Notes under the pieces: generated by a model | What the model saw: the letters and a program-made list of their open reading frames with translations, nothing else | Told to the model about the DNA's origin: nothing | Database searches by the model: none | Part shown: in pieces, positions 6,883 to 63,204 of the stretch | How positions within the stretch are numbered: position 1 is the first letter of the stretch | Layout: every line of letters starts with the position of its first letter | Program-made: the position numbers and the translations under genes | Source: Antedon bifida | Lineage: Eukaryota > Echinodermata > Crinoidea > Comatulida > Antedonidae | Length of the DNA stretch: 64,000 bases | Direction of reading: 5' to 3' | NCBI GenBank assembly: GCA_963402885.1 | Contig: OY727093.1 | Span: 3,534,001-3,598,000, forward strand

Positions 6883-7034
6883 ATTCACTAAACTGATGAC
6901 ATTGTAGTAAAATAAGTAGGCCTATATCGATACTACAAAACAAGATATGACAGATCTTACCGAACAGGATCAAGAGAGCGAAACTCAAGTAAGAGCAATG
7001 GATGGAAATCCATTCGACACGACGTACCTTGCGT

Positions 7035-11447: not shown

Positions 11448-11651
11448 TTACTTTTTTATCCACGGTTCTTTTTCAGTGATCCAGCACCATTTGTAAATTT
11501 CTTCAAGTATTTCTTCGATGTTGGAACACATATTTCTAGCAACATGAATGGTTTCACTCGAGATTTCTACTGGGCGCCGATGTTTGTCGTCATTGTTGAG
11601 ATCAACGAAATCTTGCAGCCATTTAAACTCGGCGTTTGTAGCAGGTTGAAT
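11448..11651 (-). CDS. Terminal exon of the 11.4-14.4 kb IFIT-like gene
   Basis: Acceptor gatag|ATTCAACC at 11651, stop TAA at 11448-11450. It encodes 67 aa: IQPATNAEFKWLQDF, the NNDDKHRR motif, then a long helix ARNMCSNIEEILEEIYKW. The same exon recurs in all array members except the truncated rightmost gene. Sense-strand reading frames over it are shadows. Confidence 0.88.
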   Translation of the reverse strand: MQPATNAEFKWLQDFVDLNNDDKHRRPVEISSETIHVARNMCSNIEEILEEIYKWCWITEKEPWIKK

Positions 11652-22327: not shown

Positions 22328-22522
22328 TCACCAGGAGGCATTATCAGTGATCTGGGCCCATTTGTAAATTTCTTTAAGTATGTCTTCAATGTTAGCACAA
22401 GCATCTCTTGCTACAGAAATGGTTTCCTTCGACTTCTTTAGCGGGTCTCGATGTTTGTCATCATTGTTGAGATCATTCAACACTTCTAACCATTCAAATT
22501 TAGCATCAGTTGCAGGTTGAAT
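22328..22522 (-). CDS. Terminal exon of the 22.3-25.0 kb IFIT-like gene
   Basis: Acceptor gttag|ATTCAACC at 22522 and stop TGA at 22328-22330; 64 aa with NNDDKHRD and the closing helix ARDACANIEDILKEIYKW. Confidence 0.85.
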   Translation of the reverse strand: MQPATDAKFEWLEVLNDLNNDDKHRDPLKKSKETISVARDACANIEDILKEIYKWAQITDNASW

Positions 22523-25043
22523 CTAACAAAAACAAGTAATAAGATACAAATAATGTATATTATCAATTTCTATATTTATAAGTATACAACTGTTAATAAT
22601 ATAACACATCATCGTTTTAATAACAATTATAATAATGATACTCAAGCGAGATTTTATGGATTTTACTATCAATGTAGATACAGTTATTAATACAAATAAA
22701 CACTTTCCTTAACTATATATACTTACTATAAAGGATAGGTCTACTTACCGATACAAGATATTCAAACAGATCTCTAAATCTAATTTGAAAATCTTTCCAC
22801 TTTCTACTATCTAGTACTTTCTTAACTCGTTGATCAACAGCTTTTTCAGGTTTCGGAATAATAATGAAGTCTACAGATTTAGCTTTGGAATTGGGATAAT
22901 GTTTTTTTCCAAAATACTCCATAGCATGGTTTAGTATATTTCGGCCTTGCTGCAGTACAATAGAGATGTTAGTGGCTATTTTATCATCATCCATTAGAAT
23001 GCTGTATTCCATTTCAAGTTGAAAATCTCGCAATGGTTTTATTTTTTTGCCTATAAAAGTTCCATTATCACACAAAGGCAATAGTTCAGCAAGTTCCTGT
23101 TCCAGGTTAAATTCTTTACTCCAGCTTTCGTGACTTTTAGTGACTGAAGCAATACTTTTCAAAGCAGACATTCTCAATGTATTGTCTTCTATCTTTTTCG
23201 TTTCTTCTAATAGTCGTTTCGCAGCATCTAAACTTCTCATTTTTGTTGCCAAAGTAAACATTCTTATCGCTTCAATGCTATCTCCTGATTCAGCTGCTTT
23301 CTCTCCTTTTGCTACACATAACTTCATTGTAAGTTGACGGACGTGGTCTTTCTCTTTCACACATGTCTCGCATTTAATAATCGATACAATATTATTACAA
23401 ACATCCAGATTACCTATCTTCAAATTAACGTTGGCGAACTTAACGAGTATCGCAACCTCCTCGTCGTGGCGTGTATTTGGAGTATTTTCATAGTGAAATG
23501 CTCGTAATGCTCCTCTATAATAAGAACAAGCATTCTTAAAGTCATGTATCTGTTCGTGTAGCTCTGCATTTTGTAGATTCGGTTTAACTTTATCGCGACC
23601 TTTTGATTTTTTAATTTTTATATTAAAATGTTTCTTTAATTTTGAAATCACTTCATCAACACGCTTCCGTTGGTGTTCTATAAATTCGATAGGTTCATTA
23701 CAAGAATTATTCTTGGCGAATAACTGAAGAGCAATTTTTAAACATATTTGTGTTCTGTTTGCTGCCTCATCGAACTGTTTTTTTGATCTGAAATACTTAG
23801 AATACTGTAGGTTTATGTTAAACGTGATAAATAGATCGTGTTTAAAATCAGATAATAGATTGTCAAAAGTTGAAATCGCCTCGGCATCTTTTCCCAAAGA
23901 GGCTAAGGCATCTGCCCTTTGTAATTTGGCTCCAGCATCAGATATATTTAGGCTGATCGCCTCATTAAGACACTCCAATTGTTTCTTTGTGTCATTCTTT
24001 TCTCGGTAAAGAACTGCCTCTTGAACTAAGATACACGCTGCTTGACCGTATTTTTCTTTCGCACATTCTATAACGTTCTGCGCTTCTTTAAAGTATATTG
24101 AATCGTATTTAGGTTCACTGCACTTCCAGTTTCCTTTGACGCTCCTACATTTGCAATCACCCATTCGGATATAGCATTGAGCTATGAGACTCAATACTTT
24201 TGTGTTTGAAGCTTTTTTTGTTGCTGTTTTCAGTAGATCCATTATTGTGACTTTGGCATTATTATTGCCGTTTTCGAATACAAGGCTATGAACGACAACT
24301 AGGTTGGATGATGTATTGTTCTTAGACTCTTGATGATATTTTCGTCTGTAAATATCAGCTAAAATCGTCTTAGCATATGCATGATCAGTATCTAATTCCA
24401 ATACCTCTTTCATGATTTTTTCAACTTGGTTCATTCCATCAGACCACTCAAACTTGTATATATAACCTGCGTTTCTTCGCCATGTTATGAGTCCACGCAT
24501 GAACTTCCACTCGACATTTTCTGGAAATTTCTTTGTTGCTAGTTTTAACTCATTCTCACTTTCTTTGTACCTAGAAAATGTTAATCTTGACAGAGCAAAA
24601 CCTTTAGAAGCATGAACACTTGCCTCAAACATTCTTTTGTCGTTTTCCGCAGAATCCCGATATTCTGTAAGAAGGTTTTTGAGTTCCTCGTCATTGTTCT
24701 TCTTTTCACTTTGATTGCTTGGAAACCAACACTTTAATGCTAAATACATTGATTTATAACCATTTTTAATCGATTGAGGTATTTTATCAGGTAAGTCTGA
24801 TATGGCACGAATAGCTTCCTCATTTGTTTCTTTCGCTGTTACAATATCATTCTCATCGTTGCCTTTAATGTCTGACATGTATAAGTAGCTATCAAACAAA
24901 AGCGCCTCAATTGATAACAGATCTTTATCCTCCTGGTGTTTAGTTGATTGTTTTAAGGATTTAAATGATTTACATGTATTTTCAAGTTTCCAATTAGCAT
25001 GAAAGTCAACATCTTTTAGGTCAAGAATTTCCGGTTCCATCAT
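22328..25043 (-). CDS. IFIT-like TPR protein with HEPN-like tail
   Basis: Exons 22749-25043 and 22328-22522, phase 0, encode 829 aa. The ATG at 25043 follows an acceptor-like aaacag by a few bases, suggesting a non-coding first exon as in vertebrate IFIT genes. The N-terminus MMEPEILDLKDVDFHANWKLE leads into the TPR region with GFALSRLTFSRYKESE, ENVEWKFMRGLITWRR, DHAYAKTILADIYRRK, the Cys-rich loop GDCKCRSVKGNWKCSEP, and AACILVQEAVLYREKN. The tail has GRNILNHAMEYFG, SVDFIIIPK and, in the last exon, NNDDKHRD. The terminal exon is among the most diverged of the array (FEWLEVLNDLNN; WAQITDNASW at the end). No lesions seen. Confidence 0.88.
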
Positions 25044-25530
25044 GTATCCCTATACTGTTTCGTTTCAATAAATAAAGTAAGCAATATTAGATAACGTATA
25101 ATAATAATAAAGCGTATTCATTTAGTGTTGATCATTGAAATATTCAAATACATTACTTGCAAGTTAAACAGTTATATTTTGTCAATGTATAGGAATATAT
25201 ATAATTATATTATTTTGTCTATGAAAGAGTAAGTAAAGTAGGCTACTATATCCAACTCAGTAGGCTTAGACTGGAAATTCAACTTTAAAATCCCGACAAG
25301 TAAATATGATACGTGGCCGGTTCAACCACACTTCCGGGATAAGGTTTAGTGCGCGAGAGTAATGTTATGAGATATGCAAGAGAATCAGAGTTTGCCTCTA
25401 AAATACAATTATTATAAACATAATTCAAAGCTGTTTAAAGGCCTATGATACCTGCCTATTAGAGTCTTATGTTTTTCTCTATGGAATGATGAAAATGAAT
25501 GTATACAGTGTAGCATTTGTTTTAAATTTT

Positions 25531-28264: not shown

Positions 28265-28450
28265 TCAAGCACCAGTAACCAAACACCATTTGTAAATTTC
28301 TTCAAGTATTTCTTCAATGTTAGAACACATATCTCTTGCCACAGAAATTGTTTTACTCGAGTTTTCTAGTGAGCGTTGATACCTGTCTTGATTGTTGAAA
28401 TAAACAAGATCTTGCAACCATTTAAACTTTTCATTAGTTGCAGGTTGAAT
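28265..28450 (-). CDS. Terminal exon of the 28.3-34.7 kb fusion gene
   Basis: Acceptor tttag|ATTCAACC at 28450, stop TGA at 28265-28267; 61 aa. It contains IQPATNEKFKWLQDLVYF and NNQDRYQR in place of NNDDKHRR, then ARDMCSNIEEILEEIYKW. Confidence 0.85.
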   Translation of the reverse strand: MQPATNEKFKWLQDLVYFNNQDRYQRSLENSSKTISVARDMCSNIEEILEEIYKWCLVTGA

Positions 28451-31400
28451 CTAAAATAAACAATTGATTAGAAATTTGTATTATTATATCTATATATATA
28501 CCACCTTCACCAACAATTGAGAGTGCTCTAATTAACACTTTATTCCACTTAATTGATTATAGTTTAGTTGTATTTAGTAGGCCTATAATTATATTTTTTA
28601 TTACTAAAAGTTTGTACTTAATCGTCTCATTTTTATAATTTCGTTCTTGATATTACTGGAATATTTAGAGTCAATCTGTTTGAGGTTTTGCCTAAATTAT
28701 TAATTTAGTTTCTGGAAATTTTATAAAAATATTCATCGAATGTTGCCTATTCAGGTCATACTGCATCAATATATATATTGTATAGCCTCATGGGTATAAA
28801 AACGTTAAAGTATTCAAACGTCGTAGACGTGCTACTAATGTAGCGCCAACACAGTAGTATTATTTGAAAATTACCTTAACAAATAGTTCTTCAATAAGAT
28901 GGTAAAATTTGTCATTATATTATACTCCTTGAATAAAGCTTTTTTTACTAATTTATTTATTTCCTTTCTTACTATTTAATTTAATTGTATTTGTTAGTGT
29001 GTTGTGGAATTTATTAAAAAACAAAATGTATTTAATACAAATTTTAATAATATTTTATATATTGCTTTCCTAATTTACTAGGCCTATTGATATAAATGTT
29101 GGTAATGCAGATTAGACAGTTTGTGTCTTTATAATAACCGCACTAAATAAACTAAAACGGCCGTAGTATACAGTAGCTTAACTTACCGATATAAGATATG
29201 AAAATAGAAGATTGAATTTAATTGAAAAATCTCTCCAAAGCATATTTTTAATTCGTTGACCAACATTTTTGGTTGGTGTTCCCATCGGAATAACGATGAA
29301 GTCTCTAGGTCCACCCTTGTAATTAGGATAATGTGTGTTTTCAAAATACTCCATAGCATGATTCAGTACATTTCGGCCTTTCTGCAGCACAGTAGAGATA
29401 TTAGTAGCTATATTATCATCATCCATTAGTATGCTGTATTCCATTTCAAGTTGGCATTCTCTCAATGTCTTTAATTCTTGGCCAATCAAAGATACGTCAT
29501 CACATGAAGGCAGCAGTTCTTCAAGTTCTTGTTTTAAATTAATCTCTTTACGCCAGTTTTCGTCATCTTTAGCGACTGAAGCAATACTTTCTAAAGCAGA
29601 TATCCCCAATGTATTGTCTTTGATCTTCTTGGTTTCTTCTAATAAACGTTTCGCACAAACTAAACTTCCCATTTCTGTTGACCGCGTAAACATTCTTATC
29701 GCTGTAAGGTGATCTCCTGATTCAGCTGCTTTCTCACCTTTGGCTACAAATAAATCCACTGTAAGTTGACGGACGTGGTCTTTCTCTGTCACACATGTCT
29801 CGCATTTAATAATCGCTAAAATATTACTACAAACATCGTGATTACCCATCTTCAAATTCACTTTAGCAAACTTGAAAAGTGTATCAACCTCCTGATCATG
29901 GTTAGTATTTGGTGTATTTTCATAGTGAAATGCTCGCAAAGCTCCCCTATAATATGAACAAGCATTCTTAAAGTCACCTATCTTTTCATGTAACTTGGCA
30001 TTTTCTAGATTTGGTGCAACTTTATGTCGACCTCTCGAATGTGAAATAGTGATATTAAACGATCTTCTTAAAAATGTAATTATTTTATCAACACTGCTTT
30101 GTTGCTCATCTATAAACTCAATAAATCCATTCCCAGAAGTGTTCTTCACGAATGATTGAAGAGCAATATTTAAACATTCTTGCTTTCTAAATAATGCCTC
30201 GTCATATTGTCTTACCGATATAAGATAACTTGCATAGTTTTGGTTTACGTGAAACATGACAAATGGATCATCTTTAAAATCAGATAATAGGTTATCATAC
30301 ACGGCACTCGAATCCTCAATTTTTCCAAAAGAGGCTAAGGCATTTGCCTTTTGCATTTTGTCTGCAGGGTCAGATGGTTGCAATCTGATTGCATTTTCAA
30401 GACACTCCAGTTGTCTGTTTGGGTTATTTTTTTTCCGGTAAAGAACTGCCTCTTGAACAAAGATACACGCTGCTTCCCTATAATTTCTTTTCGAATATTC
30501 TATAACATTTTGAGCTTCTTTAATGTATATTGAATCATATTTAGGTTCACTGCACTTCATGTTTCGTTTTACTCTTCTGCATCGGCATTCACCCATTCGG
30601 ATATAGCATTGAGCTATGAGACTCAGAAGTCTTGGCATGGAAGCCTTTTCTTTTGCTTCGCTGAGAAGATTCATTATTTTGATTATTCGAGGATCATTCA
30701 CATTTGCAAATACAAGACTGTGATCAACATCCTGGTTAGATGATGTATTTTGAATAAATTCCTGTTCATATTTTCTTCTGTAAATATCAGCTAAGACCGT
30801 CTTGGCATATGCATGATCAGCATCTAGTTGCAAGACGTCCGTCATGATTTCTTCAGCACGATTCATTTTATCAGACCACTCAAACCCAAACTTGTATATT
30901 GTGTACCTTCGCCATGTAATGAGTCCAAGCATAAACTTCCACTCGACATTTTCTGGACATGTCTGTGTTGCTAGGTTCAGTTCACTCTCACTTTCTTCGT
31001 ACCTGGAGAATGATAGCCTTGAAAGCGCAAACCCTTTAGTTGCATTAACACTCGCTTGAAATCTTTGTTTGTCTTCTTCTGAAGCATCCTTATAGGCTGT
31101 AAGAAGGTATTTAAGTTTCTTGTAGATTTCTTCTTTTTCTCTTTGTTTTGTTGTAAACCAGCATTTTAATGCCAAATACATTGATTTATAACCATCTTTG
31201 ATTGATTCACTTGTATTTAAGTTTGTTATGGCACAGAACGCTTCTTCATTTTTTTGCTTTGCTGTCGCAATATCCTTCTCATCGTTTCCTTTAAAATCTG
31301 ACATGTACAAGTAGCTTTCAAATAAAAGTGCTTCAATGGTGAACGATTCTTTGTCCTCTCGGTGTTCAGCAATTGATTGTTTTAACGATTTAAATGATTT

Positions 31401-34400
31401 AGATGTATTTTCAAGTTTCCAATTAGCATGAAAGTCAACATCTTGTAAATCAAGACTCTGCCGCTCCACTGCGAATACCTGTATTTCAGAAAATGTCATT
31501 TGAGTAGGAAGATTACTGTGGTATACACGCATGCACTTAAAAATAAAACAAATCCATTTTTAGATGGATTGCTTCATGGTTACTAGTAGTGATTTTGAGT
31601 TGGACAGGAAATTATTATTGCTTCATGCATCGAAGATATGATATGCATTGCTGACATAACAAACAATGTGGAGCATCGACAATGATTAAAACACTATTTA
31701 TTGTATATGTAGATAATACTAACATCTTTAAATTTCCCATATCTTGTGAATAGAACAAGATTGTCACGAAGGTATACAAGTGGAATATAGGTTTTGCGTG
31801 AGATAAAACGTAATAATACAAAAACGTGGATTATGTAACAGGTATTGCCTTTAACAGTTTGTTTTGAATGACTAAATATAGACACAGCAACGAATCGTAT
31901 ACATTAAACATAATCTGGCTGTATGAACGAATAGTGCAGTTTTTACTTACTTGAATTTCTGTTTTCTCAATCTCATCCTGTTGAGAAAGCACATGAATAT
32001 ATGTATACAAAGCAATGAATATTTATGAGTTGGATGGTGGAGAAAGATGAGTTGAAAGATTGACTGCTATTATAGTTTAATATATAGGCCTAGCAGTCTC
32101 TTTAAACGAATGAAATTAAATATTATCCACCAGCCAACCACAAAACATTTATTATTTGTTTTATAACACACCTAGGCTACTACTACTACATTGAATTGTC
32201 AACGGAACATATTTAGGCCTCGCCAGGCTGGCAAGCGACAATGAAAATCGCTAGGCAACTTAAACTGGTCAATGCTAATTTTGTTTTTTCAAAGGTTTCA
32301 CGTCTTGTATAGTTCCATTAATTAATTAATTAATTAATCAAAACGTAGTACAAAGGATCTAAAGCTTTTTTGGTCGAAATATTATTACATTTCTAAAAAA
32401 ATGTTAGTTCCGATCGAGTGCCATTTTCAGTGTTTCAATGTTACGGCACTGGTATGTAGCTATACCATATGGAATGCCCGCTTTAAACCGACGTGGAAAA
32501 GTGTTTCCTAATAATGTATTTTTTTTTATAGCAATCTGAATGTTATGCTTTTTGGATGTGTTTTATACTATTTACCTTCTTATTTTAGTGTTTTGTATTT
32601 GTTGTCTTGTTTTGCCCTGCATCTTGGTCCTCCAAGCTGTGACCTGGGATGTTTGTTACATTCTTATGTTTTTTTAATTTGAAATAAAGAATGATTTTAC
32701 TACTAAATAATGATTCCAAACCAATAGGCGGCGCTATTTCATGCGGAGATATTCACAGTTGGCTTTGAAATTGTTTTTCGTACGCGAGTAGATTTTATTT
32801 CGTACAAAAATGCTGAAAATGTGCTATCACACGATCATTTAATAGTCTTTTTAATCAAACGCTATGTGACCAACAATCGTCCAATCAAATCACAAGAATA
32901 TATTTAGGTGTGTATAAAAAGTAATAAAAAAAACACGTGCATGTAGATTATGTAACAGGTATTGAATTAATTTTACTAGAATGAACTGAATGACTAACTA
33001 CATAGAGACACAACAACGGACCGTATTAGACATATAAATCTGTCTCCAAGAACCAATATTATTACTCACATAAACTTCAATAGTTTCTTGGATTTCCTCA
33101 ATCTCATCCTGTTAAGAAAGCACATTCGGAGAACCATTAAATTATAATTATGTCAACAAGGTATAGGCGGTAGTTGTCAAAGTAAACATCTTTTTATACG
33201 TTGGTTGTACTTATTGTTACCTTATACTGACTACGTCTTTCTGATTTTTCTGATTCAGAAACAAGAGTTTGTGAAGTTGTTGCAGTAGTAACGGTGGTAT
33301 TAACGTTGAGACCTACATAAAAAAGAGCATTGTTTCATTTGTTTCACACAATGGTGATAAGTATTTGATATGTCGTATTTTTTACTGAAACGCACAGTGC
33401 CGCAACTAATAGCTAGTTATCAGGTTAAAAATGTTTTAACCTAATTGGAGTCTATTACTACAAATAAATTTTTTTTTTATAAAGAATAGGCCTACCGACA
33501 GGCCATACATATTTAATTTATATATTGTCATAAACAATAATAATAATAGCTTTCTAACTCTAGCTAAATGATTTTCTCATTATGCAGGAATATGTGGACT
33601 AACTTATTTCTCACCTTCTCCGTTTAGCTTATTTAGAGCTTCTATGTATGTTTGATGATCAAACTGTGTCTCCCAAGTCTGTTCAAACTCTTGCCAGTGT
33701 TTCTCTGTAAACATTATTCCAGCTATATCTTTCAGAAGTTGTCCACTTTGATGCAGATTCCATATATTTGTAAGAGCTCTGGGATCCACTAAAGATACAT
33801 GAAATACTATGGATCCCTCTGTTATTTCTAAAGCTTTACTACAACCACGGCATAAAACGTAAAAGTAAGGTTCAATTTCGTTTAGTTTGTCAAAACATAC
33901 TCCTGAAATCTCCACTTTCATTCGTTCATGTCTTTTTGGAAGCGATTGATCTTCAGAATCCTCAGCTTTTTGTTTTAGTGTTATCGCTAGTGCAACGCCT
34001 TTAGGAGGAGAAATTAATAATTATTGTTATATCTATTTTAGAAAAAGAAAACCTGTTGAATAAAAACATTTATATTGGAAGAATTTGAAACAAATATAAT
34101 GAACACTATTGTATATAATTTACAGACGAAAACTGAATAAAATAAATTATACTGTGAATGCACATTGTTAATGTTTAAAATGATATTAAACAAACCAATT
34201 ACATACTATTGTTAAGTAGATGATTCTTTGCTTTTTTGTTAAGACAATTTGCAAACTTGTTTTTTTTTTCTGATCCCTCTTCAAGAATTCCATCTCTCTC
34301 TAACCGCAGTACTAAATCCCAGGTAGTTGGGAAATCATCGGTTAACTCATAGTAATCTTTAATGCCACTTAACTCATCTGGCCCAACGTCTCGCAATGCA

Positions 34401-34744
34401 TTAAACAGGCTCTTTCGATAGTTTGACAGCTTTCCCTTTTCCTTATTTTCAGCATTTTTATTAGCACCTCCATCTAATATATATTCAGTTACAAGATCTT
34501 CTGCCTTTTTCAAACATGACAGTTTTGCGATATCTAATAAAAGGTGAACATTATCATGTGCAATAAACCCAAACTCTTCTAGTGAATTTAGTAACTGATG
34601 TCCTGAAGTTGCAGTTATGAGGTCACTATAACACAGTATGTTAAATAAGCAAAATCTCAACCATTTGAACTTGTGGGAATCAAAGATTTGACCGAATTTA
34701 CGTTTGAAGTCCTTGAACTTTTCAGGGGCATCATTGTCTGCCAT
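28265..34744 (-). CDS. DED - GSIVF module - IFIT-like TPR - HEPN-like fusion protein
   Basis: Predicted exons: 34207-34744, 33615-33998, 33221-33312, 33070-33108, 31951-31977, 29187-31478 and 28265-28450. Junctions are in phase (1, 1, 0, 0, 0, 0) with good splice signals (A|GTATGT, G|GTGAGA, AAG|GTAACA, TAT|GTGAGT, CAA|GTAAGT, TCG|GTAAGT), giving 1,185 aa. Residues 8-178 are two DED-like domains; 181-307 the GSIVF module with a basic K-x-K segment; 309-360 a Ser/Thr-rich then acidic linker; 361-1124 the IFIT-like TPR part with FHANWKLENTSKSFKSLKQ, LSRLSFSRYEESESEL and DHAYAKTVLADIYRRK; and the tail up to 1185. Its HEPN-like motif reads NNQDRYQR, so the usual KH is lost. A shorter form starting at ATG 31532 (MRVYHSN, in frame) is possible. 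Likely a cytoplasmic immune sensor or adaptor; function inferred. Transcript support would settle the fusion. Confidence 0.72.
29187..31478 (-). CDS. TPR exon of the 28.3-34.7 kb fusion gene
   Basis: 764 codons, fully open. The acceptor tacag|GTATTCGC at 31478 is in frame with the upstream linker (V-F-A-V-E-R-Q-S-L-D-L-Q-D-V-D-F-H). In plain IFIT copies the equivalent position holds the start codon. It ends SYLIS|gtaagt. The first ~100 codons are nearly identical to the 39.8-42.1 kb copy, the rest clearly diverged. Confidence 0.88.
31951..33312 (-). CDS. Three small linker exons of the 28.3-34.7 kb fusion gene
   Basis: Exon 33221-33312 encodes a Ser/Thr-rich piece (GLNVNTTVTTATTSQTLVSE) ending ERRSQYK. 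Exon 33070-33108 encodes DEIEEIQETIEVY. Exon 31951-31977 encodes DEIEKTEIQ. The two acidic microexons begin with the same bases after their acceptors (ttaacag or tcaacag, then GATGAGATTGAG) and look like an exon duplication. They are 39 and 27 nt and multiples of three, so they can be skipped or included without changing frame. Confidence 0.65.
33615..33998 (-). CDS. Exon 2 of the 28.3-34.7 kb fusion gene: GSIVF module
   Basis: 127 codons. It begins VALAITLKQKAEDSEDQ with a bipartite-basic look (K-x-K, then KRHER), followed by VCFDKLNEIEPYFYVLC, the core GSIVFHVSLVDPRALTNIW, SGQLLKDIAGIMFTEKH and ending LNGEG at the donor GAAG|GTGAGA. Read-through would give GEK then stop. Confidence 0.75.
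34207..34744 (-). CDS. Exon 1 of the 28.3-34.7 kb fusion gene: tandem DED-like domains
   Basis: Starts MADNDAPEKF at the ATG conserved with the 45.3 kb copy. DED 1: FKWLRFCLFNILCYSDLI, GHQLLNSLEEFGFI, VHLLLDIAKLSCLKKAEDLV. DED-like 2: NYRKSLFNALRDVG, TTWDLVLRLERDGILEEG. The donor GTATGT leaves phase 1. The frame would stop two codons later, so without splicing it would make a free tandem DED of 181 aa, a possible FLIP-like product. Confidence 0.78.
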
Positions 34745-35154
34745 TTCACTAAAACGTTTTTGTCTGAAACAAATAATGAAATGAAAAACCTTGTTAGACC
34801 TACGTCGTTATGCCAGAAATCTGAACATATTTCATAATAAACTACAGTAGTTAAAGTAATTAAAAGTTTTTCTAAATGTAATTTATGTGTTTAGAACCTA
34901 TTCTGTTTCAACGACTTAATTTGTCTGGCAACCACTATACTGTATTTACTATGTTTAGAATCAGATATGAGAAGATGCGTTAAGTGCATGTTGGAATGCC
35001 TTTGGAAAACTACTATTATTTTATTATAGGTTGTAAACAAGAAATGATTTATAGACCGGAGTAAAACAGGAAAGCATAGTCTCACCTATACTATTTATCG
35101 CATATATGGACATATATTAAAACATAATACAACCACCACAAGTCGTATCATGCT

Positions 35155-35345
35155 GACGCAGACATGGTAATTGTAATTGTAATATTTATTGCCATCCATA
35201 TAAAAAAGTAGACAGGTCAAACAATTTTTACCACAATAATACAAGAAAAATAAGTTACAATATATGGAATAGCAGAGGATAACCCTTTAAGCTCAAGAGC
35301 TTGTTTCAGAAGGGGTCCTCAACATAAAAACAAATTATATTAACG
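35155..35345 (-). mobile_element. Retroposon 3' end
   Basis: Read on the minus strand it ends with atggcaataaatattacaattacaattac and contains a ggttatcc preceded by a gcttaaa segment, typical of a LINE 3' UTR with a short tandem tail. No coding part. A duplicated copy lies at 45722-45900. Confidence 0.45.
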
Positions 35346-35619
35346 TAAAAATTCAAATATAAAGTATGATAATTATAATTTAGATATTAAACAGATATTT
35401 TATAAGTAAAAGGTTGTAAATTAGGTTTCGTTTATAAAACGACATTTCATAGAAAAATATTTTAAATATGTATAGTTTATATTCAATTAATTATTATTGA
35501 CAATGTAATTAGATTTTTATTTTACAATTAAGATTAAATTAAATATTGACTATTGGTACTAAATTGTCATTTGTGAGGCAAGATATTTATTTAGAGCTAC
35601 ATTGAAGGCATATCATCTA

Positions 35620-36265
35620 CCCAGCCGAAAAAGGAGAAATAGAGAGAGCAATGCATAATTGGAACGAATGCTTAAGCAGGCATAAAGATAACCGTTTCAA
35701 AGACTGACATCCTCGGTGTCAGTAGGGAAAAATTTAACATCACTATCAATGGAGAAACTGTGAATAAATATCTAGGAAACATCATCATGGGAGAAGGTGG
35801 AAACAAACATTGAATTGGGAAAGGTGCTCTGTAACCCATTCTAAAAGACAGACATGTACCAAAAAATCAAAACAGATCATCTTTGATGTATGGTACAGAA
35901 GCATGACAATAACCACAGCGGATTTGAGTAGGATACAAGCTTCAGAAATGAGAAGCCTCAGAGCAAACAAAATAATAAATGAGGAGATCCGCAGACACGT
36001 AAGACACATCCGCAATAAATTGAGCTACAAGATGGCCTGTTCATTTGAAGAGAATGGATGAGAAGAGGGTAGCAAAAACATGTTGGAACTGGAAACCTCG
36101 TGGCAAAAGACCAATAGAATGGCTGGATACAATTAAAGACACCCTAAAATAGGAATAACATGCCCAGACGTAAGAGAACTTAAAAGTCACGGTCAAATGA
36201 TGGACAGGCCAAAGTGGAGAAAGAGGCTAGCACCATTGACCTGGGAGCTGTAGTAAGAAGTAAGT
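35620..36265 (+). mobile_element. Decayed LINE reverse-transcriptase C-terminal fragment
   Basis: With frame changes one can follow the C-terminal layout of a LINE polymerase: SVSVGKNLTSLSMEKL (like the KTK..I.G strand), ELGKVLCNPF, KTDMYQKIKTDH, and then KRPIEWLDTIKDTLK and DRPKWRKRLAPLTWEL near the end. It ends with a gtaagaagtaagtaa tail. Several stops; dead. The F-side copy (46190-46690) lacks the last ~350 bp. Confidence 0.6.
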
Positions 36266-36519
36266 AAAGGTTTCAAAGAAGTATGTATACTATGAGGAAA
36301 TTATTTTTACAAACATCAGTTAATGTTAGGCGAATTAGGAAAGGACATTTTTTTTATATTTTAAAAAATCATTTATATATTATGGTACATTGATCAGAGT
36401 ATTGCACCTTCAACAAATATATAATTGGAAACAGAAAACAATTGCTTTTTAAAAACTGTTTAGTAGTACGATTTGATTTGATACGAGTTGATGCTTTTCT
36501 AAAGAAAGAGAGCTGTTAT

Positions 36520-38540
36520 TGTCCACAAATACATAATAATATCATACAATGCATTGTGATAAATCCAAGCATGACTGACTTCGAAAATAATCAAAATGCC
36601 TAGAGTAGTATACCATACAGTAAATGGTATGTTTTGCTTCTTTCATGATTTGCCATTTAAGGCGGTATCCAAATTTAATTAACATGGCTTTTTTAAACAC
36701 TTCAAGATAATTCAATTTGTTTCCATTTCCCTTGGTCTAATAAAGATCTTTATACATAGTATATTAAAGGTGTCTCTAATAAAGAAAAGGGACATAAATA
36801 TACTGCTAACAAATTACATCAACGACTGATGTAGAGAGGGCGCTTGCGTCTGATGACATAAGAACTAATATGACGTTGCACAACAAACGTAGGGTATGAC
36901 CGTCATTGTGTTTTTGTTTTTTCAATAATACGAATTACACTATAATAATGTGAACTAAATGCATCGAGAAAAATTGCAATCGAGTGATATGAATTCCGTT
37001 ACGGTGAAAAAACAAATGCATCTCGTAGAAATATGGAAATGCTATATGAATTCCGTTGCGATGAATAAAACACACCGGGTAGAAATCGATCTGGTAAATT
37101 TGTATCGAGTATATTATTGTGTCATCCATTTTGTGAATTAGATGGGAACGTTTTAAATTACTTGCGGTCTAACATATTATAAATAAACAATAGTAGTTGA
37201 ACATTGCATATTTATATAAAGAGCAATACGCAGAGGTGGAAGCAAACAAAATTAATAAAAATAAACTATGTGGACAAATAGTAGGACCAAGAAAACGATG
37301 GCTTGATACAATTACACCCTAAAAAAGAATAACATACCCAAACGTACAGGAACTTAGAAGTGACGGTCAAATGATGGACAGACCAAGCTAGGGAAAAGTG
37401 CTAGCACCACTGACCTGAGACTGCTGTAGTAAGAAGTAAGTAAGAATATTATAATAATTGTTTTACAAACATCAGTTAATGTTAGGCGATTTAGCGTTAC
37501 GTTTGCTGTCATTTCCAGGGAAATTGTTTTAAAAAATCCTCATTGATATTATGGTACATTGATAAGAGTATTGCACCTTCAACAAGTGAAGTAAATATAG
37601 GCCTATAATTGGAATAAGAAAAACCTTTGCTTTTTTAAACTTTTAATTGTATATCAAAAGTACGATTTTTGAGAACTGTTATTGTCGACGCTACATAATA
37701 GAAATAATAATATCATACAATGTATTGTGATAAATCCAATGCTTGACAGACTTTGAACAACGATCAAAGGTCTAGTAGTATACCATACAGCAAATGGTAT
37801 GTTTGCTTCCTTCATGATTTGTCGTTTAAGGCGGTATCCAACATTAACATGGCTTCACCTCCTTCAGAAAAATTTAATTGTTTCGGTTTTCCTTGGTAGC
37901 TACATATAAAGATCTTTATACGTAGTCTATTAAAGGTGTCTCTAATAAAGAAAAGGGACATAGGGCTATTGTTTTCTAACACTGTGTCTATTATTATTGT
38001 TAATTGCTACGGGATATATGCTAGAGAATGCACAGAATATACCGAGGCCTGGTTTTACTTTAGAATTGAGACCACCACAAAATGGTCATTATATGATTAC
38101 TTTATGATCGATATTACAATACATTTTATTCTAAACAAGTCGTGTGCTAGGTCTTATAATAGGCCTACATAACGATCACGATTTGTGTTTTCTATACGTT
38201 ATCGTATCGTATCGTATAAAACACAACTAGAAAACAACACTGGGCCTACTACCACTAGACCTACGGTACTGTAGCTCTATAAACTGTTAGACTATTCTAA
38301 ATTATATTCATTTTGTTTCATCCTCTACAGATGCCTTACCTGTAATTCAGTTCTCTTACACCATACCAATGATCATAGCCAAAATATTACCAAATGTTTT
38401 TTCCTAAAAATATGATAGCAATTAGACCGTGAATAAATACTGCTGCTAACAATTACACCAACGACTGATGCAGAGAGGGCGCTTGCGTCTGATGACGTAA
38501 GAACTAATATTTAGCATACACAACAAACGGGTTGACTCCT
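36520..38540. repeat. Tandem spacer repeat with ctgatgacgtaag boxes
   Basis: A unit of about 1.2 kb occurs twice (about 36520-37200 and 37695-38540). Each unit has tacaatg-attgtgataaatcc, accatacag-aaatggtatg, ggcggtatcca-caacatgg or ttaacatgg, gtgtctctaataaagaaaag and agagggcgcttgcgtctgatgacgtaag. A subregion (36955-37110) has an internal ~47 bp duplication around atgaattccgttgcgatga. The unit also occurs at 46735-47460 and 48000-49170 and, diverged, at 7.7-9.2 kb. Short open frames here vary in length between copies and are not supported as genes. Confidence 0.7.
37215..37445 (+). mobile_element. LINE polymerase tail fragment
   Basis: It contains GPRKRWLDTI-like coding bases (ggaccaagaaaacgatggcttgatac), then AQMMDRP-like sequence and the gtagtaagaagtaagtaag tail also seen at 36.25 kb. 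A 3' fragment of the same LINE family; duplicated at 47465-47700. Confidence 0.5.
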
Positions 38541-39467
38541 AAAACAAAAAGAACAATCGTCATTTAATCTGCCATGCATTCAAGGAGGCACCGAAGCCCT
38601 CTATCAACAAGGCCTATGTTACAGACATAGAAAAGCCCAAAATCAATTCCAGCAGAAGTTGTCGTCGTGACGTTTGTTTGTGGCGAGACTATTGTATGGT
38701 TAATATATATATATATATAAAACACCTCTTGAGTTGAGTATAAATATACACTTCCTTGTCCGGGGAGTTTGCCGCCTCGTAATAATTTGTTCTGATCTAA
38801 CTAGAATACTTTTATTTATTTACCTCATTAATCTTGCAACAAAATAAAACGACAAATTGTGAAATTGTGAATTGTTTAGCTTTAATTTAATAATGGTTTA
38901 GATGTGATTTTCTATGATGGTATTATAATCTGTAAAGTTGTTTCAATTAAGCTTTTTCAATTTATATTGAATTAAATGAATACATACATTGAATAAATAA
39001 TAATAATTACCAACAATATAAATAGCATTAATCATAACGATGGAATGCGATGGAAGACAAAACACAGTTTTGTATCTTTGTTCATCGCTCTATCAAAGAT
39101 AGGTTTTGATATATTTCAGTATTATTGCAAGGTGCTTAGAAATTCTTTATTTGTGTTTACATTGATTGTTAAAGATCATTGTCAAAGCTACAACTTCTCG
39201 ACTAACCCTTTTTAACATACTATTAATTATACAAGAATTAAACAATTTTATTCTAATTTCATCAAAATCGAATGACGGAAAGTTCATTTTTTCTACCGTA
39301 GTTTTAATTGTTAGAGAGACAGTGAACGTACTTGATCTAACTACTGATGCCAGTCTTTCTATTAATCTTTAGTCTATGCTTTAATCAAGTGGCTGGTTGA
39401 CTTAATATAGTGAGACAAAGCTAAGTTGATATATGTTGTCAATGTCAAACCAGAGCCTCATCTTTAA

Positions 39468-39659
39468 TCACGATTCGTTTACCGTGATCCAGCACCATTT
39501 ATAAATTTCTTCAAGAATTCCTTCAATGTTTGAACACATATCTCGTGTAATAGAAATGTTTTTACTCGAGTATGTTATTTTGCCTCCATGTTTGCTTTGG
39601 TTGTTAAGATCACTGAAGTCTTGCAGCCATTTAAACTCATCATTAGTTGCAGGTTGAAT
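39468..39659 (-). CDS. Terminal exon of the 39.5-45.3 kb fusion gene
   Basis: Acceptor ttcag|ATTCAACC at 39659, stop TGA at 39468-39470; 63 aa with IQPATNDEFKWLQDFSD, NNQSKHGG and ITRDMCSNIEGILEEIYKW. Confidence 0.85.
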   Translation of the reverse strand: MQPATNDEFKWLQDFSDLNNQSKHGGKITYSSKNISITRDMCSNIEGILEEIYKWCWITVNES

Positions 39660-42600
39660 CTGAAATAAACAAATGAAAACAATTTAATCTATTATAAATT
39701 ACTAATATTAACTTGGATATTATACGGTGTAAATTTTTACCTACTAAGTTGGATCTATAGAAACTTACCGATTTAAGGTATTCTAACAGATGTGGCAATT
39801 CATTTTCAACATCTTTCCAATGGCTTTCCTTTAATTTCTTTAGCATTTGGTTTTCAACAGATCCTCGATCTTCGTTTCTAATTATAATGAAATCTAAAGA
39901 TTTAGGTGTATGGGGTTTAGCCTTACCCTTCTGCTCCTTAGGTTTGGGATAACCATGTTTGTTTCCTAACAACGCCATAGCATGGTTTAGTGAATCACGT
40001 CCTTTCTGCAGCACAGTACAGATCTTATCAGATATTATATCAGCATCACTATCCATTAGAATGCTGTATTCCATTTCAAGTTGGCAATTTCTTAATGTCT
40101 TTAATTTTTGGCCCATCAAAGATCCATCATCAGAAGAAGGCAAAATTTCTGCAAGTTCCTTTTTTAGATTAAACTCTCTACTCCAGTTTTCGTCATCTTT
40201 AGCGACTGGAGCAATGCTTTTCAAAGCAGACATTCTTGATCTAGTATCTCCCGTCCGTTTCGTTTCTTCTAGTAAACGTTTCGCACCATCTAAACTTCTC
40301 CTTTCTGTTGCCCGCGTAAACATTCTTATCGCTTCAAGGCTATATCCTGAATCAGCTGCTTTCTCTCCTTTTGCTACAAATAGGTCCATTGTAAGTTGAC
40401 GGACGTCTTTCTCTGTCACACATGTCTCGCATTTAATAATCACCAAAACATTACTACAAACATCAAAGTTACCCATCTTTAAATTCACTTTAGCAAACTT
40501 AAAGAGTGTATCAACCTCCTCATCATGTCTTGTATTTGGCATTTTCCCGTAATGAAATGCTTGCAAGGCATCCTTATAATACGAACAAGCATTCTTAAAG
40601 TCACCTATCTGTTCATGTAATGTTGCGTTTTCTGTATTTGGTGCAACTTTATCTCGACCTTTTGAATGTGAAATGTTGACATCAAAATGTTTTTTTAAAT
40701 ATTTAATTATTTTATCTACATTGCTTTGTTGCTCATTTATAAACTCAATAAGCCCATTCTCAGAAATTGTCTTTACGAATGACGTTAAAGCAATCTTTAA
40801 ACACTCTTGGTTTCTGAAAATTGCCTCATCATATTGTTTTACTGATACAAAATAACGTGCATAGTTTCGGTTTACGTCAAACATGACAAATGAATCGTGT
40901 TCAAAATCTGATAATAGATTATCAAACACGCAAATCGCATCTTCATGTTTGTCCAGAGAGGCTAAGGCATTTGCTTTTTGCATTTTGGCTCCAGCGTCAG
41001 ATGGTAAGAGTCTAATGGCATTTTCAAGACACTCCAATTGTTTGTTTGCGTCATTCTTCTCTCGATAAAGAACTGCCTCTTGAACAGAGATACACGCTGC
41101 TTCACCGTATTTTTCTTTTCCATATTCTATAACATCATGAGCTTTTTCAAAATATATTGAATCGAATTTAGGTTCACTGCACTTCCGCTTTCCTTCAATT
41201 CTTTTACATATGCATTCGCCCATTCGGATATAGCATTGAGCTACGATACTCAATATTTTTGGTCTGGAGGCGTTTATTTTTGCTTCGTTGAGTAGGTTCA
41301 TTATTTGTATTATATAAGGATCATCCGTCTTCTCAAACACAAGAGTATGACCAACATTTTGGTTGGCCAATTTGGTTTTTGTAGACTGTTGATGGTATTT
41401 TCTTCTGTAAACATCAGCTAAAATCGTCTTGGCATATGCATGATCAGCATCTAGTTCTAATACTTCACCCATGATTTCTTCAGCCCGATTCAGTCCATCT
41501 GACCATTCAAACTTGTATATACGTGTGTACCTGCGCCAGATCAGGAGTCCAAGCGTAAACTTCCACTCAACATTTTCTGGACATGTTTCTGTTGCTTGCT
41601 TCAGCTCAGACTCACTTTCTTCGTACCTCGACAATGTTAATCTTGACAGCGCAAAACCTTTAGTCACATGTACACTTGCTTTAAATCTTTTTTTGTCTTC
41701 TTCTGAACCCTCTTGATAAGCTGTAACAAGGCGTTTGAGTTCCTTGGCGATTTCTTTTTTTTCGCATTGATTGGTTGTAAACCAACACTTTAATGCCAAA
41801 TGTATTGATTTATAACCATCTTTGATTGATTCACTTGTATTTAAGTTTGTTATGGCACAGAACGCTTCTTCATTTTTTTGCTTTGCAGTCGCAATATCCT
41901 TCTCATCGTTTCCTTTAAAATCTGACATGTACAAGTAGCTTTCAAATAAAAGTGCTTCAATGGTGAACGATTCTTTGTCCTCTCGGTGTTCAATTGATTG
42001 TTTTAACGATTTAAATGATTTAGATGTATTTTCAAGTTTCCAATTAGCATGAAAGTCAACATCTTGTAAATCAAGACTCTGCCGCTCCACTGCGAATACC
42101 TGTATTTTATTAACAGAAAATGTCATTTGAGTAGGAAGATTACTGTGGTATACACGCATGCACTTTGATTGATATAAAATATAAACAAATCCATTTTTAG
42201 ATGGAGTGCTTCATGGTCACTAGTAGTGATTTTGAGTTGGACAGGAAATTGTTATGACGATTATTATTATTGTCTTACGAAGCTACAATGCTTAATGCAT
42301 CGAAGATATGATATGCATTGCTGACATAACAAACAATGTGGAGCATCGACAACGATTAAAACACTATTTATTGTATATGTATATGTACTAAAATATTTAA
42401 ATTTATTTCCCATATCTTGTGAATAAAACAAGATTGTCACGAAGGTATACAAGTGGAATATAGGTTTTGCGTGCGATAAAACGTAATAATGCAAAAACGT
42501 GGATTATTTAACAGGTATTGCATTTAACAGTTTGTTTTAAATGACTCTGGCTCTATTAACCAATAGTGCAGTATTACTTACTTTAATTTCTTGTATTTTC

Positions 42601-45327
42601 TCAATCTTATCCTGATCCTGTTGAGAAAGCACATCATTAGTTAATTATTTAGAACCAACAAAGCAAGATAGTCACGTGGTACAGTATACAAGTGGGATGT
42701 AGGCTTGCACATCGTACATATGTGAGATAATAACAAATAATGAATATTTATGAGTTGGATGGTGGAGAAAGATGAGTTGAAAGATTGACTGCTATTATAG
42801 TTAAATATATAGGCCTAGCAGTCTCTTTAAACGAATGAAATAGTATCCACTATCCAACGACAAATCATGTATTATTTGTTTTATAACACACCTAGGCTAC
42901 TACTACTACATTGAATTGGCAACGGAACATATTTATAGGCCTCGCTAAGCTGGCAAGCGACAATAAAAATCGCTAGGCAACTCAAACTGGTCAATGCTAT
43001 TTCTGTTTTTCAAAAGGTTTGTATAGTTCTCATTCATTAATGAAAACGTAGTACAAACGAACTAAAGCATTTTTGGTCGAAATATTATTACATATTGCTA
43101 TCAAAAAATGTTACTTCCGATCAAGTGCCATTTTCAATGTTTCAATGTTACGGCACTGGTATGTAGCTATACCATATGGAATGCCCGCTTTAAATCTACG
43201 TGGGAATAGTGTTCCCTAATAATGTTTTTTTTTTATAGCAATCTGAATGTTGTGCTTTTTTGATGTGTTTTATACTATTTTTACCTTCTTATTTAGTGTT
43301 TTTTATTTGTTGTCTTGTTTGGCCCTGCATGTACTTGGTCCTCCAAGCTGTGACCTAGGATGTTTTTTTACATTTTTATGTTTTTTTTATTTGAAATAAG
43401 GATGATTTTACTACTAAATAATTATTCCAAACCAATCAAAACAACAGGCGGCGCTATTTCATGCGGAGATTTTTTTCGTACAAAAATGCTGAAAATGTGC
43501 TAACACGATCATTTTTTTAATCAAACGCTATGTGACCCACAATCGTACAATCAAATCACAAGAATATAGTTAGGAGTGTATAAAACGTAATAAAAAAAAA
43601 ACACGTGCATGTAGATTATTTAACAGGTATTGAATTAAATTTTAATATAATTAATTGAATGACTGCCTACATAGAGGTACATATAAATCTGTCTCCAAGA
43701 GCCAATATTATTACTCACATAAACTTCTTCACTAGTTTCTTGAATTTCCTCAATCTCATCCTGTTGAGAAAGCACATTAGGAGAACCATTACTTAATAAT
43801 TATGTCAACAAGATATAGGCGGTAGTTGTCAAAGCAAACACCTTTTTATACGTTGGTTGTACTTATTTTTACCTTATACTGACTACGTCTTTCTGATTCA
43901 GAAACAATAGTTTGTGATGTTTTTACTGTAGTAGCATGACTTTTGGTACTAACGGTGAGACCTACATAAAAACAAAAGAGCATGGCTTCAGTACACAATG
44001 GTGATAAATATTTGGTATATACTTAGCTACTGCAACTATGAGCTAGTTATCAGGTTAAAATGTTTAAAATTATCGGAGTCTATTACTACAAATAAACAAC
44101 CTATCGGCAGGCCATAAACATATAATTTATAAATTGTCATAAACATCAATAGCTGTGATTTTCAAATTATGTAGGAATATGTAGACTAACTTATTTCTCA
44201 CCTTCTCCGTTTAGTTTATTTAGAGCTTCAATGTATACTTGCTGATTAAACTGTGTCTCCCAAGTCTGTTCAAACTCTTGCCGGTGTTTCTCTGTAAACA
44301 TTATTCCTGCTAAGTCTTTCAGAAGTTTCCCACTTTGATGCAGATTCCATATATTTGTAAGAGCTCTGGGATCTACTAAAGTTACATGAAATACTATGGA
44401 TCCCTCTGTTACTTCTAAAGCTTTACTACAACCACGGCATAAAACGTAAAAGTAAGGTTCAATTTCTTTTAGTTTGTCAAAACATACTCCTGAAATGTCC
44501 ACTTTCATTCGTTCATGTCTTTTTGGAAGCGATTGATCTTCAGAATCCTCAGCTTTTCGTTTTAGTGTTATGGCTAGTGCAACGCCTTTTTAGGAGGATA
44601 AATGAAAATGAATTGTTATATCTATTTTAGAAAAAGAAAACCTGTTTAATAAAAACATTTATATTGGAAGAATTTGAAACAAATATAATGAACACTATTA
44701 TATATAATTTACAGACGAAAACTGAATAAAATAAATTATACTGTGAATGCACATTGTTAATGTTTAAACTGATATTAAACAAACCAATTACATACTATTG
44801 TTAAGTAGATGATTCTTTGCTTTTTTGTTAAGACAATTTGCAAACTTGTTTTTTGACTCCTCTTCAAGAATTCCATCTCTCTCTAACCGCAGTACTAAAT
44901 CCCAAGTAGTTGGGAAATCATCGGTTAACTCATAGTAATCTTTAATGCCACTTAACTCATCTGGCCCAACGTCTCGCAATGCATTAAACAGGCTCTTCCG
45001 ATAGTTTGAAAGCTTTCCCTTTTCCTTATTTTCAGCATTTGTATTAGCACCTCCATCTGATATATACTCAGTTACAAGATCTTTTGCCTTTTTCAAACAT
45101 GACAGTTTTGCGATATCTAGTAAAAGGTGAACATTATCATGTGCAATAAACCCAAATACTTCTAGATGATTTAGTAACTGATGTCCTGAAGTTGCAGTTA
45201 TGAGGTCACTGTAACACAGTATGTTAAATAAGCAGAATCTCAACCATTTGAACATGTAGGAATCAAAGATTTGACCGAATTCACGTTTGAAGACCTTGAA
45301 TTTTTCAGGGGCATCATTGTCTGCCAT
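39468..45327 (-). CDS. DED - GSIVF module - IFIT-like TPR - HEPN-like fusion protein
   Basis: Predicted exons: 44796-45327, 44202-44585, 43873-43961, 43719-43760, 42582-42617, 39769-42099 and 39468-39659. All junctions are in phase and the sum is 3,606 nt, a 1,201 aa protein. DED-like domains lie at 8-176, the GSIVF module at 179-305, the linker at 307-361, the TPR part at 362-1138 and the tail to 1201. The TPR exon begins V-F-A-V-E-R-Q-S-L-D-L-Q in frame with the linker, exactly as in the 28.3-34.7 kb gene. The C-terminus differs from other members: LGNKHGYPKPKEQ, SLDFIIIRNEDR, EYLKS at the donor, and NNQSKHGG with His retained. The 5' two fifths duplicate the 28.3-34.7 kb gene, whereas the 3' part resembles the pseudogene at 1-1.8 kb, so the gene is a mosaic. 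ATG 42159 may start a DED-less form. Confidence 0.72.
39769..42099 (-). CDS. TPR exon of the 39.5-45.3 kb fusion gene
   Basis: 777 open codons from acceptor tacag|GTATTCGC to donor CG|GTAAGT. TPR blocks: GFALSRLTLSRYEESESEL, ENVEWKFTLGLLIWRR, DHAYAKTILADVYRRK, the loop MGECICKRIEGKRKCSEP, and ACISVQEAVLYREKND. The cysteine pattern CxC is altered to C-I-C here but kept. Confidence 0.88.
42582..43961 (-). CDS. Three small linker exons of the 39.5-45.3 kb fusion gene
   Basis: Exon 43873-43961 (GLTVSTKSHATTVKTSQT then ERRSQYK), exon 43719-43760 (DEIEEIQETSEEVY) and exon 42582-42617 (DQDKIEKIQEIK). Lengths differ slightly from the other fusion gene but phases are kept; in-frame indels in an otherwise near-identical region are what coding constraint would leave. 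Confidence 0.65.
44202..44585 (-). CDS. Exon 2 of the 39.5-45.3 kb fusion gene: GSIVF module
   Basis: 127 codons beginning VALAITLKRKAEDSEDQ then KRHER, a possible bipartite nuclear signal; the core reads GSIVFHVTLVDPRALTNIW. Donor GAAG|GTGAGA. Confidence 0.75.
44796..45327 (-). CDS. Exon 1 of the 39.5-45.3 kb fusion gene: tandem DED-like domains
   Basis: Nearly identical to the 34.2-34.7 kb exon, differing by scattered substitutions and a two-codon deletion (ILEEESKNKF). The upstream in-frame ATG at 45354 (MFQTKTFCE) is not kept in the other copy because of a one-base indel, so MADNDAP is preferred. Donor A|GTATGT, phase 1. Confidence 0.78.
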
Positions 45328-50045: not shown

Positions 50046-50216
50046 TCAGCAATATTTATATATTTTTTCAAGTATTTCTTCAATGTTAGAACACATATTT
50101 CTTGCAACAGAAATTGTTTCACTCGAGTTTTCTACTGGGCGCCGATGTTTGTCCTCGTTGTTGAAATCACTGAATTTCTGCAGCCATTTAAACCTAGCAT
50201 CAGTTGCAGGTTGAAT
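50046..50216 (-). CDS. Terminal exon of the 50.0-52.7 kb IFIT-like gene
   Basis: Acceptor gctag|ATTCAACC at 50216 and stop TGA at 50046-50048; 56 aa with NNEDKHRR. The WCW tail of other copies is lost (YKYC). Confidence 0.83.
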   Translation of the reverse strand: MQPATDARFKWLQKFSDFNNEDKHRRPVENSSETISVARNMCSNIEEILEKIYKYC

Positions 50217-54033: not shown

Positions 54034-54237
54034 TCACCTCTTTAACCAGGGTTCCTTCTCAGTAAACCAGCACCATTTGTAGATTTCTTCAAGTATTTCT
54101 TCAATGTTAGAACACATATCTCGTGCAACAGAAATTGTTTGACTCGAGTTTTCTTGTAAGCGTCGATGTTTGTCATCGTTGTTGAGAGTATTGACAGCTT
54201 GTAACCATTCAAACTTAGCATTTGTTGCAGGTTGAAT
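54034..54237 (-). CDS. Terminal exon of the 54.0-56.8 kb IFIT-like gene
   Basis: Acceptor gttag|ATTCAACC at 54237, stop TGA at 54034-54036; 67 aa with IQPATNAKFEWLQ, NNDDKHRR and ARDMCSNIEEILEEIYKW. Confidence 0.87.
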   Translation of the reverse strand: MQPATNAKFEWLQAVNTLNNDDKHRRLQENSSQTISVARDMCSNIEEILEEIYKWCWFTEKEPWLKR

Positions 54238-62800: not shown

Positions 62801-63204
62801 ATTTAATTACATTCATTACTATTTCTCACCTTTTCCATTCAGCTTATAAAGCGCATCAACGTATCTTTGTTGATCAAACTGTGTCTCCCAGGTCTGTTCA
62901 AATTCTTGCCGATGTTTATCTGTAAACATTATTCCTGCTATGTCTTTCAGAAGTTTCCCACTTTGATGCAGAATCCATAAATTTGAAAGAGCATTGGGAT
63001 CCACTAAAGACACATGGAATACTACAGATCCTGTTGTTAAATCACTAACTTCATTGCAACCAAGATATAACAAGTAAGATTCAAGTTGTCTCAGTTGGTC
63101 AAAACATGTTGCTAAAAGCTCAAGTTCCCTTTCATGTTTCTTTGGAGATGTTTGATCTTCAGAATCATCAGCCTTTCGTTTTAGTGTTATGGCTAGTACA
63201 GCGC
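59804..63204 (-). CDS. DED-family/IFIT fusion gene, 5' end outside the window, C-terminus truncated
   Basis: Visible exons: 62830-63204 (GSIVF module), 61987-62081 (linker) and 59804-61462 (TPR), phases 1 and 0. The module starts AVLAITLKRKADDSEDQ then KKHER and has GSVVFHVSLVDPNALSNLW. The linker reads DLTFSTKSNTTSAKNSPK and ends GRGHYK. No acidic microexon was found. The TPR exon opens ASISERNVLDLQNVEFHANWKLE directly after an acceptor attag, in frame with the linker, and has GFALSRLGLPRYKESE, DAGHAYAKAILADIYRRK and ACIFVQEAVLCREKND. It stops at NNLDD, about 200 residues before the normal end, so the last TPRs and the whole HEPN-like tail are missing and no terminal exon follows. The DED exon must lie beyond 64,000 if present. 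Either a truncated functional protein or a pseudogene. Confidence 0.62.

Follow-up and report, generated by a model that had tools for sequence, protein, structure and literature searches.

Vertebrate IFITs are RNA-binding effectors that stand alone, and RIG-I-like receptors carry an N-terminal pair of CARDs together with a helicase and an RNA-binding C-terminal part. The locus described here lies in a stretch of 64,000 nucleotides on a contig of the crinoid Antedon bifida (C1:3.53-3.60 Mb; hereafter the window). Two of its genes, A and B, are probably single genes of seven exons, each predicted to encode a tandem-DED/TRADD-N-like head, a flexible linker, an IFIT-like tetratricopeptide repeat (TPR) region and a short tail.

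In its account of DED-TRADD-N proteins, the study of Kaur et al. (2021, eLife; PMC8195603) finds that DED-TRADD-N heads of marine invertebrates, within NCOA6 and DEDD2 clades, precede many different antiviral C-termini, and reports lineage-specific expansions that include echinoderms. Fusion partners named there are Mov10, RLR-like receptors and TTC28-like TPR proteins and, in an oyster protein, cGAS followed by TPRs; its main text contains no mention of IFIT. The part of PMC3688568 that treats the distribution of IFIT confines the family to jawed vertebrates, recognises no member in sea urchin and places invertebrate TPR proteins with E-values under 1e-6 outside IFIT in trees.

The Antedon models share several traits of the DED-TRADD-N proteins. 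The DED lies at the N-terminus, and by the gene models a constant head precedes a variable C-terminus: a short tail in the annotated Antedon mediterranea protein P0006, a zinc-finger-like exon with a helicase at locus L040, and the IFIT-like TPR in A, B and a third unit, C. A lineage-specific expansion is apparent as well, with at least 117 matches to P0006 in the A. bifida genome and at least 48 matches to the second module of the head, here called GSIVF; at least 37 of the latter lie beyond the array around the window and a cluster at 1.6 Mb (48 minus 7 and 4). The fused models of A and B depart from the stand-alone state typical of IFIT, which the plain TPR copies of the array would show.

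Exon structure and the start of the TPR exon

Both seven-exon models could be rebuilt exactly as originally predicted. They are free of stops over 1,185 codons (A) and 1,201 codons (B), and all six introns of either gene have GT/AG borders. At the ends of the DED and GSIVF exons the phase is 1; linker 1 is entered in phase 1 and left in phase 0, and all later junctions are in phase 0. The exons are as follows.

34207..34744, minus strand: gene A exon 1, tandem DED (gene model, Pfam scan; structural match of P0006 to caspase-8 DEDs)
33615..33998, minus strand: gene A exon 2, GSIVF module, TRADD-N-like
33221..33312, minus strand: gene A exon 3, linker 1, phase 1 in and phase 0 out (gene model)
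33070..33108, minus strand: gene A exon 4, linker 2 (gene model)
31951..31977, minus strand: gene A exon 5, linker 3 (gene model)
29187..31478, minus strand: gene A exon 6, IFIT-like TPR superhelix with GTG in place of the ancestral ATG (gene model; fold of P0001)
28265..28450, minus strand: gene A exon 7, C-terminal tail, HEPN unsupported (gene model)
44796..45327, minus strand: gene B exon 1, tandem DED (gene model, Pfam scan)
44202..44585, minus strand: gene B exon 2, TRADD-N-like (gene model, Pfam scan)
43873..43961, minus strand: gene B exon 3, linker 1 (gene model)
43719..43760, minus strand: gene B exon 4, linker 2 (gene model)
42582..42617, minus strand: gene B exon 5, linker 3 (gene model)
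39769..42099, minus strand: gene B exon 6, IFIT-like TPR with GTG in place of the ancestral ATG (gene model)
39468..39659, minus strand: gene B exon 7, C-terminal tail (gene model)

From exon 1 to exon 7 the lengths in A and B differ by 6, 0, 3, 3, 9, 39 and 6 nt, all multiples of three, and the ratio of nonsynonymous to synonymous substitution rates (dN/dS) between the two genes is 0.27 for the DED exon, 0.45 for GSIVF, 0.41 for the TPR exon and 0.34 for the terminal exon. Together, these four ratios and the length differences exceed what chance would give. For the three linkers pooled, dN/dS is about 1. Identity between A and B is 95-96% in the DED and GSIVF exons (96% for DED), 82% in the TPR exon and 76% in the tail; over aligned bases the introns reach 92-96% (introns 1, 3, 4 and 5), 83% (intron 2) and 52% (intron 6). 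The structure thus agrees in two copies, as had been claimed, but the copies duplicated recently, their introns being almost as alike as their exons, and do not count as independent. Because the 5' halves were recently duplicated, their agreement gives weak support; it was rejected as proof of fusion, and unit C and a unit at C1:1651 kb were therefore used instead.

Seven DED-GSIVF pairs (units A to G) lie within 184 kb around the window, and in all seven TPR sequence follows in the same orientation. Units A, B, C and E retain the 5' end of the TPR exon, and D, F and G have TPR remnants only. The same 184 kb hold 14 plain TPR copies that have a 5' end and no DED, one of them a short fragment and one frameshifted. 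At the homologous start site all 14 plain copies have an ATG and none of the four DED-linked copies with a TPR 5' end does, counts that include near-identical duplicates among the plain copies and A/B and hence do not equal independent events. The codon at this site is GTG in A and B and other bases in C and E. The TPR acceptor had been predicted to lie exactly where the plain copies have their ATG; it is indeed near that site and in frame, but 9 nt upstream of it, and the ATG itself is lost in the DED-linked copies. In the open frame of unit C a stop codon immediately precedes the TPR acceptor, and in unit E a stop lies nine codons upstream of the TPR exon with no start in between. Because of these upstream stops and the lack of a local start, the TPR N-termini of C and E (about 71% identical to that of A) can, as the frames read, be translated only if they are spliced from upstream.

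In units A, B, C and D the open frame also reaches a stop a few codons past the GSIVF donor. Readthrough to it would yield a DED-TRADD-N short form, which might brake the fused long form much as c-FLIP acts as a brake on caspase-8. We hold it improbable that both products are made; the short form is a prediction from genomic sequence, and the readthrough residues may be conserved solely as splice donor.

The same linker in other units

Unit C extends across the edge of the window and comprises the following elements.

64535-64004 (window scale), minus strand: unit C DED exon, just beyond the window edge
62830..63204, minus strand: unit C exon 2, GSIVF-homologous module (no TRADD-like_N match at E up to 1)
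61987..62081, minus strand: unit C linker 1, 95 nt, phase kept (flanking introns unalignable to A, B and E)
59804..61462, minus strand: unit C TPR exon, homologous site without ATG, stop abutting the acceptor, early stop

Compared with the introns of A, B and E, those flanking linker 1 of unit C show no similarity above the level of shuffles. Linker 1, its phase and the TPR acceptor are nevertheless kept, which supports fusion; between C and E, 74 of 99 columns of linker 1 agree. The linker is 92 nt long in A, 89 in B, 95 in C and 98 in E, all 2 mod 3, and these lengths therefore fit a phase-1-to-phase-0 exon. Units A, B and E also contain linkers 2 and 3; in unit C neither was found.

The array also lacks the exon with which a stand-alone DED relative ends. 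P0006, a DED-TRADD-N protein of 366 aa, closes in a short tail exon, which in A. bifida was found at two of the four loci of a cluster at C1:1.60-1.69 Mb (84% and 80%) and was not found in the stretches examined of the other two, L038 and L040. With these cluster matches as positive control, the P0006 terminal exon was not found in the 184-kb array, where the best match had an E-value of 0.12.

At L040 (C1:1651 kb), 1.9 Mb from the array, a DED-TRADD-N unit carries an 86-nt exon that resembles linker 1. Its scores against linker 1 of B, C and E are 42, 42 and 35, the best of 500 shuffles reaching 28, 26 and 25; against that of A it is not distinct from shuffles (18 vs a shuffle best of 26). 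In phase 0 it is followed by an exon that is zinc-finger-like by eye, with no Pfam family over cut-off, and the chain is open for 476 codons. Helicase frames lie downstream on the same strand (head and helicase frames, L040/L045, together at C1:1644601-1652600), with matches to AAA_12 (1.2e-17), AAA_11 (1.8e-13 and 2.5e-7) and a MOV-10 Ig-like domain (0.035). The label MOV10-like is weak, because it derives from the Pfam match at 0.035 and the AAA_11/AAA_12 pair. The L045 helicase frames are of SF1 type; for one of them no solved structure matched at 1e-3. Because a linker-1-like exon here precedes a zinc-finger-like exon and a helicase, one linker seems to join one type of head to different bodies, the one-gene model of L040 being putative.

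The remaining features of the window are a further unit, D, and the plain copies used for comparison.

5663..6921, minus strand: unit D, open frames of a diverged DED and GSIVF, with TPR remnants behind them at 1751-392
54061..56757, minus strand: plain IFIT-like TPR gene with ATG and tail exon (tblastn limits; comparison copy)
50049..52685, minus strand: plain IFIT-like TPR gene with ATG and tail exon (tblastn limits; comparison copy)
22346..25046, minus strand: plain IFIT-like TPR gene with ATG and tail exon (tblastn limits; comparison copy)
11475..14435, minus strand: plain IFIT-like TPR gene with ATG and tail exon (tblastn limits; comparison copy)

TPR copies without 5' ends stand behind DED-GSIVF pairs at window positions 1751-1 and in units D, F and G; these are probably decayed fused units. 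Between array genes, a plus-strand open frame at 26455-26796 resembles a reverse transcriptase fragment by eye.

Domain identities

The tandem DEDs of the original prediction are upheld by structure comparison, in which the top two Foldseek matches of the P0006 model, itself a weak model, are caspase-8 DED structures (probability 0.99 and 0.98; E-values 0.05 and 0.12). The second module, which had been left unnamed, is present as predicted and can be given a name: it is TRADD-N-like, below the Pfam cut-off. Both assignments, DED and TRADD-N, are supported but weaker than the exon structure and its phases, the lost ATG, the missing P0006 end and the IFIT-like fold of a relative, all of which the analysis shows. 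Because the module is TRADD-N-like, the N-terminal half of A and B is a known metazoan pairing (PMC8195603, in its treatment of DED-TRADD-N proteins). No caspase domain after the tandem DED emerged when exons 1, 2 and 6 of both genes were scanned with Pfam. In the A. bifida genome the tandem-DED family is very large, with at least 107 matches to the DED part of P0006 (best 112 of 650 candidates), mainly on C8, C15, C16, C7 and C12.

The IFIT-like superhelix is seen in the fold of the model of P0001, a relative to which the frames of genes A and B are 68% and 64% identical. Its TPR region mostly has a predicted local distance difference test (pLDDT) score of 80-95, and the TPR structures of OGT, LGN and Tom70 rank below IFIT in the fold comparison. 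At the sequence level neither P0001 nor P0005 matched IFIT at E-values up to 5, and an NCBIfam scan returned nothing specific. Of two profiles, A1 retrieved three TPR proteins and no IFIT among solved structures, and the matches of A4 were to TPR proteins in general, 19 of which ranked ahead of IFIT1 (0.036). A divergent relative, L032, is 27-29% identical to the array family and matches human IFIT5 at 2.7e-10, a designed TPR protein ranking first by whole-sequence score. The IFIT kinship of the array TPR is thus suggested by the modelled fold and by L032. Divergent IFIT-like open frames of about 730 aa occur at L032 (1782-3977), C8:10106787, C14:11614862 and C1:14650631. Annotated homologues of the gene A TPR exon number five, four in A. 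mediterranea and one in Anneissia japonica; the best is from A. mediterranea (67% identity), and three of the A. mediterranea matches lie on one contig.

The HEPN-like character that had been proposed for the tail is not supported. Two of three tails gave no HEPN Pfam family at E-values up to 10, and the tail is modelled with a pLDDT of 31-60, from an alignment of three spliced tails only. In the same scan the Anneissia tail gave DUF4145 at 0.098, which we take to be a HEPN family. Where plain tails commonly have a DKH motif, gene A has DRY.

Alternatives, mechanism and known systems

As a statement on gene structure, the proposed fusion is corroborated by the lost ATG, the shared linker exon and its phase, the missing P0006 end and the joint at L040. 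A number of observations weigh against it. The fusion is a prediction from genomic sequence. A search for DED+TPR proteins elsewhere, as the original prediction had suggested, returned no fused DED-TPR protein from the protein database, neither with the fused protein (best 8,000 candidates) nor with its DED-linker part as query; a hit in these searches requires short exact words in common and a length within set limits. The TRADD-N assignment lies below the cut-off and is without a match in unit C, and the residues that we take to form the 5'-triphosphate pocket of IFIT5 are mostly unconserved in the alignment, as judged by eye. Intron 1 of unit C matches those of A, B and E at 52 of 71 positions, above shuffles. 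L038 shows neither the P0006 tail nor the linker in the stretch examined, and another terminal exon may follow linker 1. A and B contain in-frame ATGs upstream of the TPR acceptor, a possible stand-alone TPR start. Lastly, at most A and B are intact among the seven units, because the DED exon of E is frameshifted close to its end and the TPR end of E is broken, C runs into an early stop (leaving a chain of 886 codons), and D, F and G hold TPR remnants only.

Some of these points would be expected if the array consisted of two neighbouring genes duplicated together, namely a DED-TRADD-N adaptor with an undetected terminal exon and an IFIT-like gene with its own promoter. Those ATGs and the lack of a fused protein in the database searches would fit such an arrangement, as would the annotation of A. 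mediterranea, which holds a stand-alone TPR protein and a stand-alone DED-TRADD-N protein; the latter, however, matches the C1:1.6 Mb cluster and not the array. The P0006 terminal exon is absent from the array, C and E are without a local TPR start, and linker 1 is conserved as a phase-1-to-0 exon behind which the only recognised phase-0 exons lead to the TPR. We consider two separate genes unlikely. To the suggestion that the fusions arose by tandem duplication and are now decaying by-products, never selected as fusions, we likewise attach little likelihood: five of the seven units are broken or truncated and the linker dN/dS is near 1, as it would have it, yet A and B stay open over about 1,190 codons with a dN/dS of 0.27 to 0.45 in four exons.

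Under the preferred reading, that of fused genes, a DED-TRADD-N gene related to those 1.9 Mb away would have come to lie upstream of IFIT-like genes in the tandem array. Splicing would have joined its linker exon to an acceptor at the 5' border of the TPR exon, whose start codon would then have decayed. In the resulting protein, if transcribed as modelled, the IFIT-like superhelix would bind foreign or unusual RNA or ribonucleoprotein; bound proteins would cluster, and their DEDs would nucleate a filament with a caspase-8-type DED protein, the TRADD-N-like domain recruiting a second partner as a second output. Even granting the fusion, this caspase-8-type signalling, by analogy a RIG-I logic with a DED arm, is a tentative proposal that we would not rate as probable. 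A suitable partner may exist, since DEDs at C1:8500 kb lie beside caspase exons at C1:8496-8498 kb and the genome thus seems to contain a caspase-8-like locus. Fused genes and mechanism taken together are the explanation we regard as best, with modest confidence and somewhat on the probable side. It is quite possible, though less likely than not, that linker 1 is an exon-sized joint that plugs the DED-TRADD-N head onto RNA-handling antiviral proteins (IFIT-like here, a MOV10-like helicase at C1:1.65 Mb) and so defines a family of RIG-I-like DED receptors.

If true, alarm receptors of RIG-I type would signal through DEDs instead of CARDs, and death signalling would be coupled to IFIT-like proteins in animals that lack interferon. 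A DED arm built into an IFIT-like protein of an echinoderm would imply an older fold family whose ligand binding can be linked directly to cell death; by gaining this arm, an RNA-binding protein could become an alarm switch. That the linker exon is shared suggests how such receptors could be put together by splicing, and yields a testable set of genes.

Another joining of the same TPR family to a cell-death domain is annotated in A. mediterranea. P0002 (935 aa) combines an IFIT-like TPR with a caspase (Peptidase_C14, E 1.7e-60), but the caspase is C-terminal and there is no DED; this annotation also points to death signalling. In A. bifida its two halves map to different chromosomes: the TPR part corresponds to a cluster of five at C12:13772199-13803102 (80-84% identity), one copy of which was examined and has a donor closing its linker exon, and the caspase part to C1:8496141-8497807 (97%), beside the DEDs; no caspase match on C12 was among the matches listed (best 49 of 78 candidates).

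The claim that the architecture is undescribed stands in so far as no DED-IFIT protein appeared in the literature searched, yet it is also one more C-terminus on a known theme. Vertebrate IFIT1 and IFIT5 differ in that P0001 has about 280 further C-terminal residues and A and B add a DED-TRADD-N head. The likeness to RIG-I-like receptors is one of layout, an N-terminal death-fold pair with a C-terminal part that is here predicted to bind RNA, and is an analogy and not kinship, with CARDs and a helicase there and DEDs and TPRs here. Also among the closest known systems are the DED-TRADD-N proteins as PMC8195603 portrays them, with their N-terminal DED and TRADD-N and a variable, often antiviral or RNA-related C-terminus; the Antedon proteins differ from those portrayed there in their IFIT-like superhelix and in their tandem DED.

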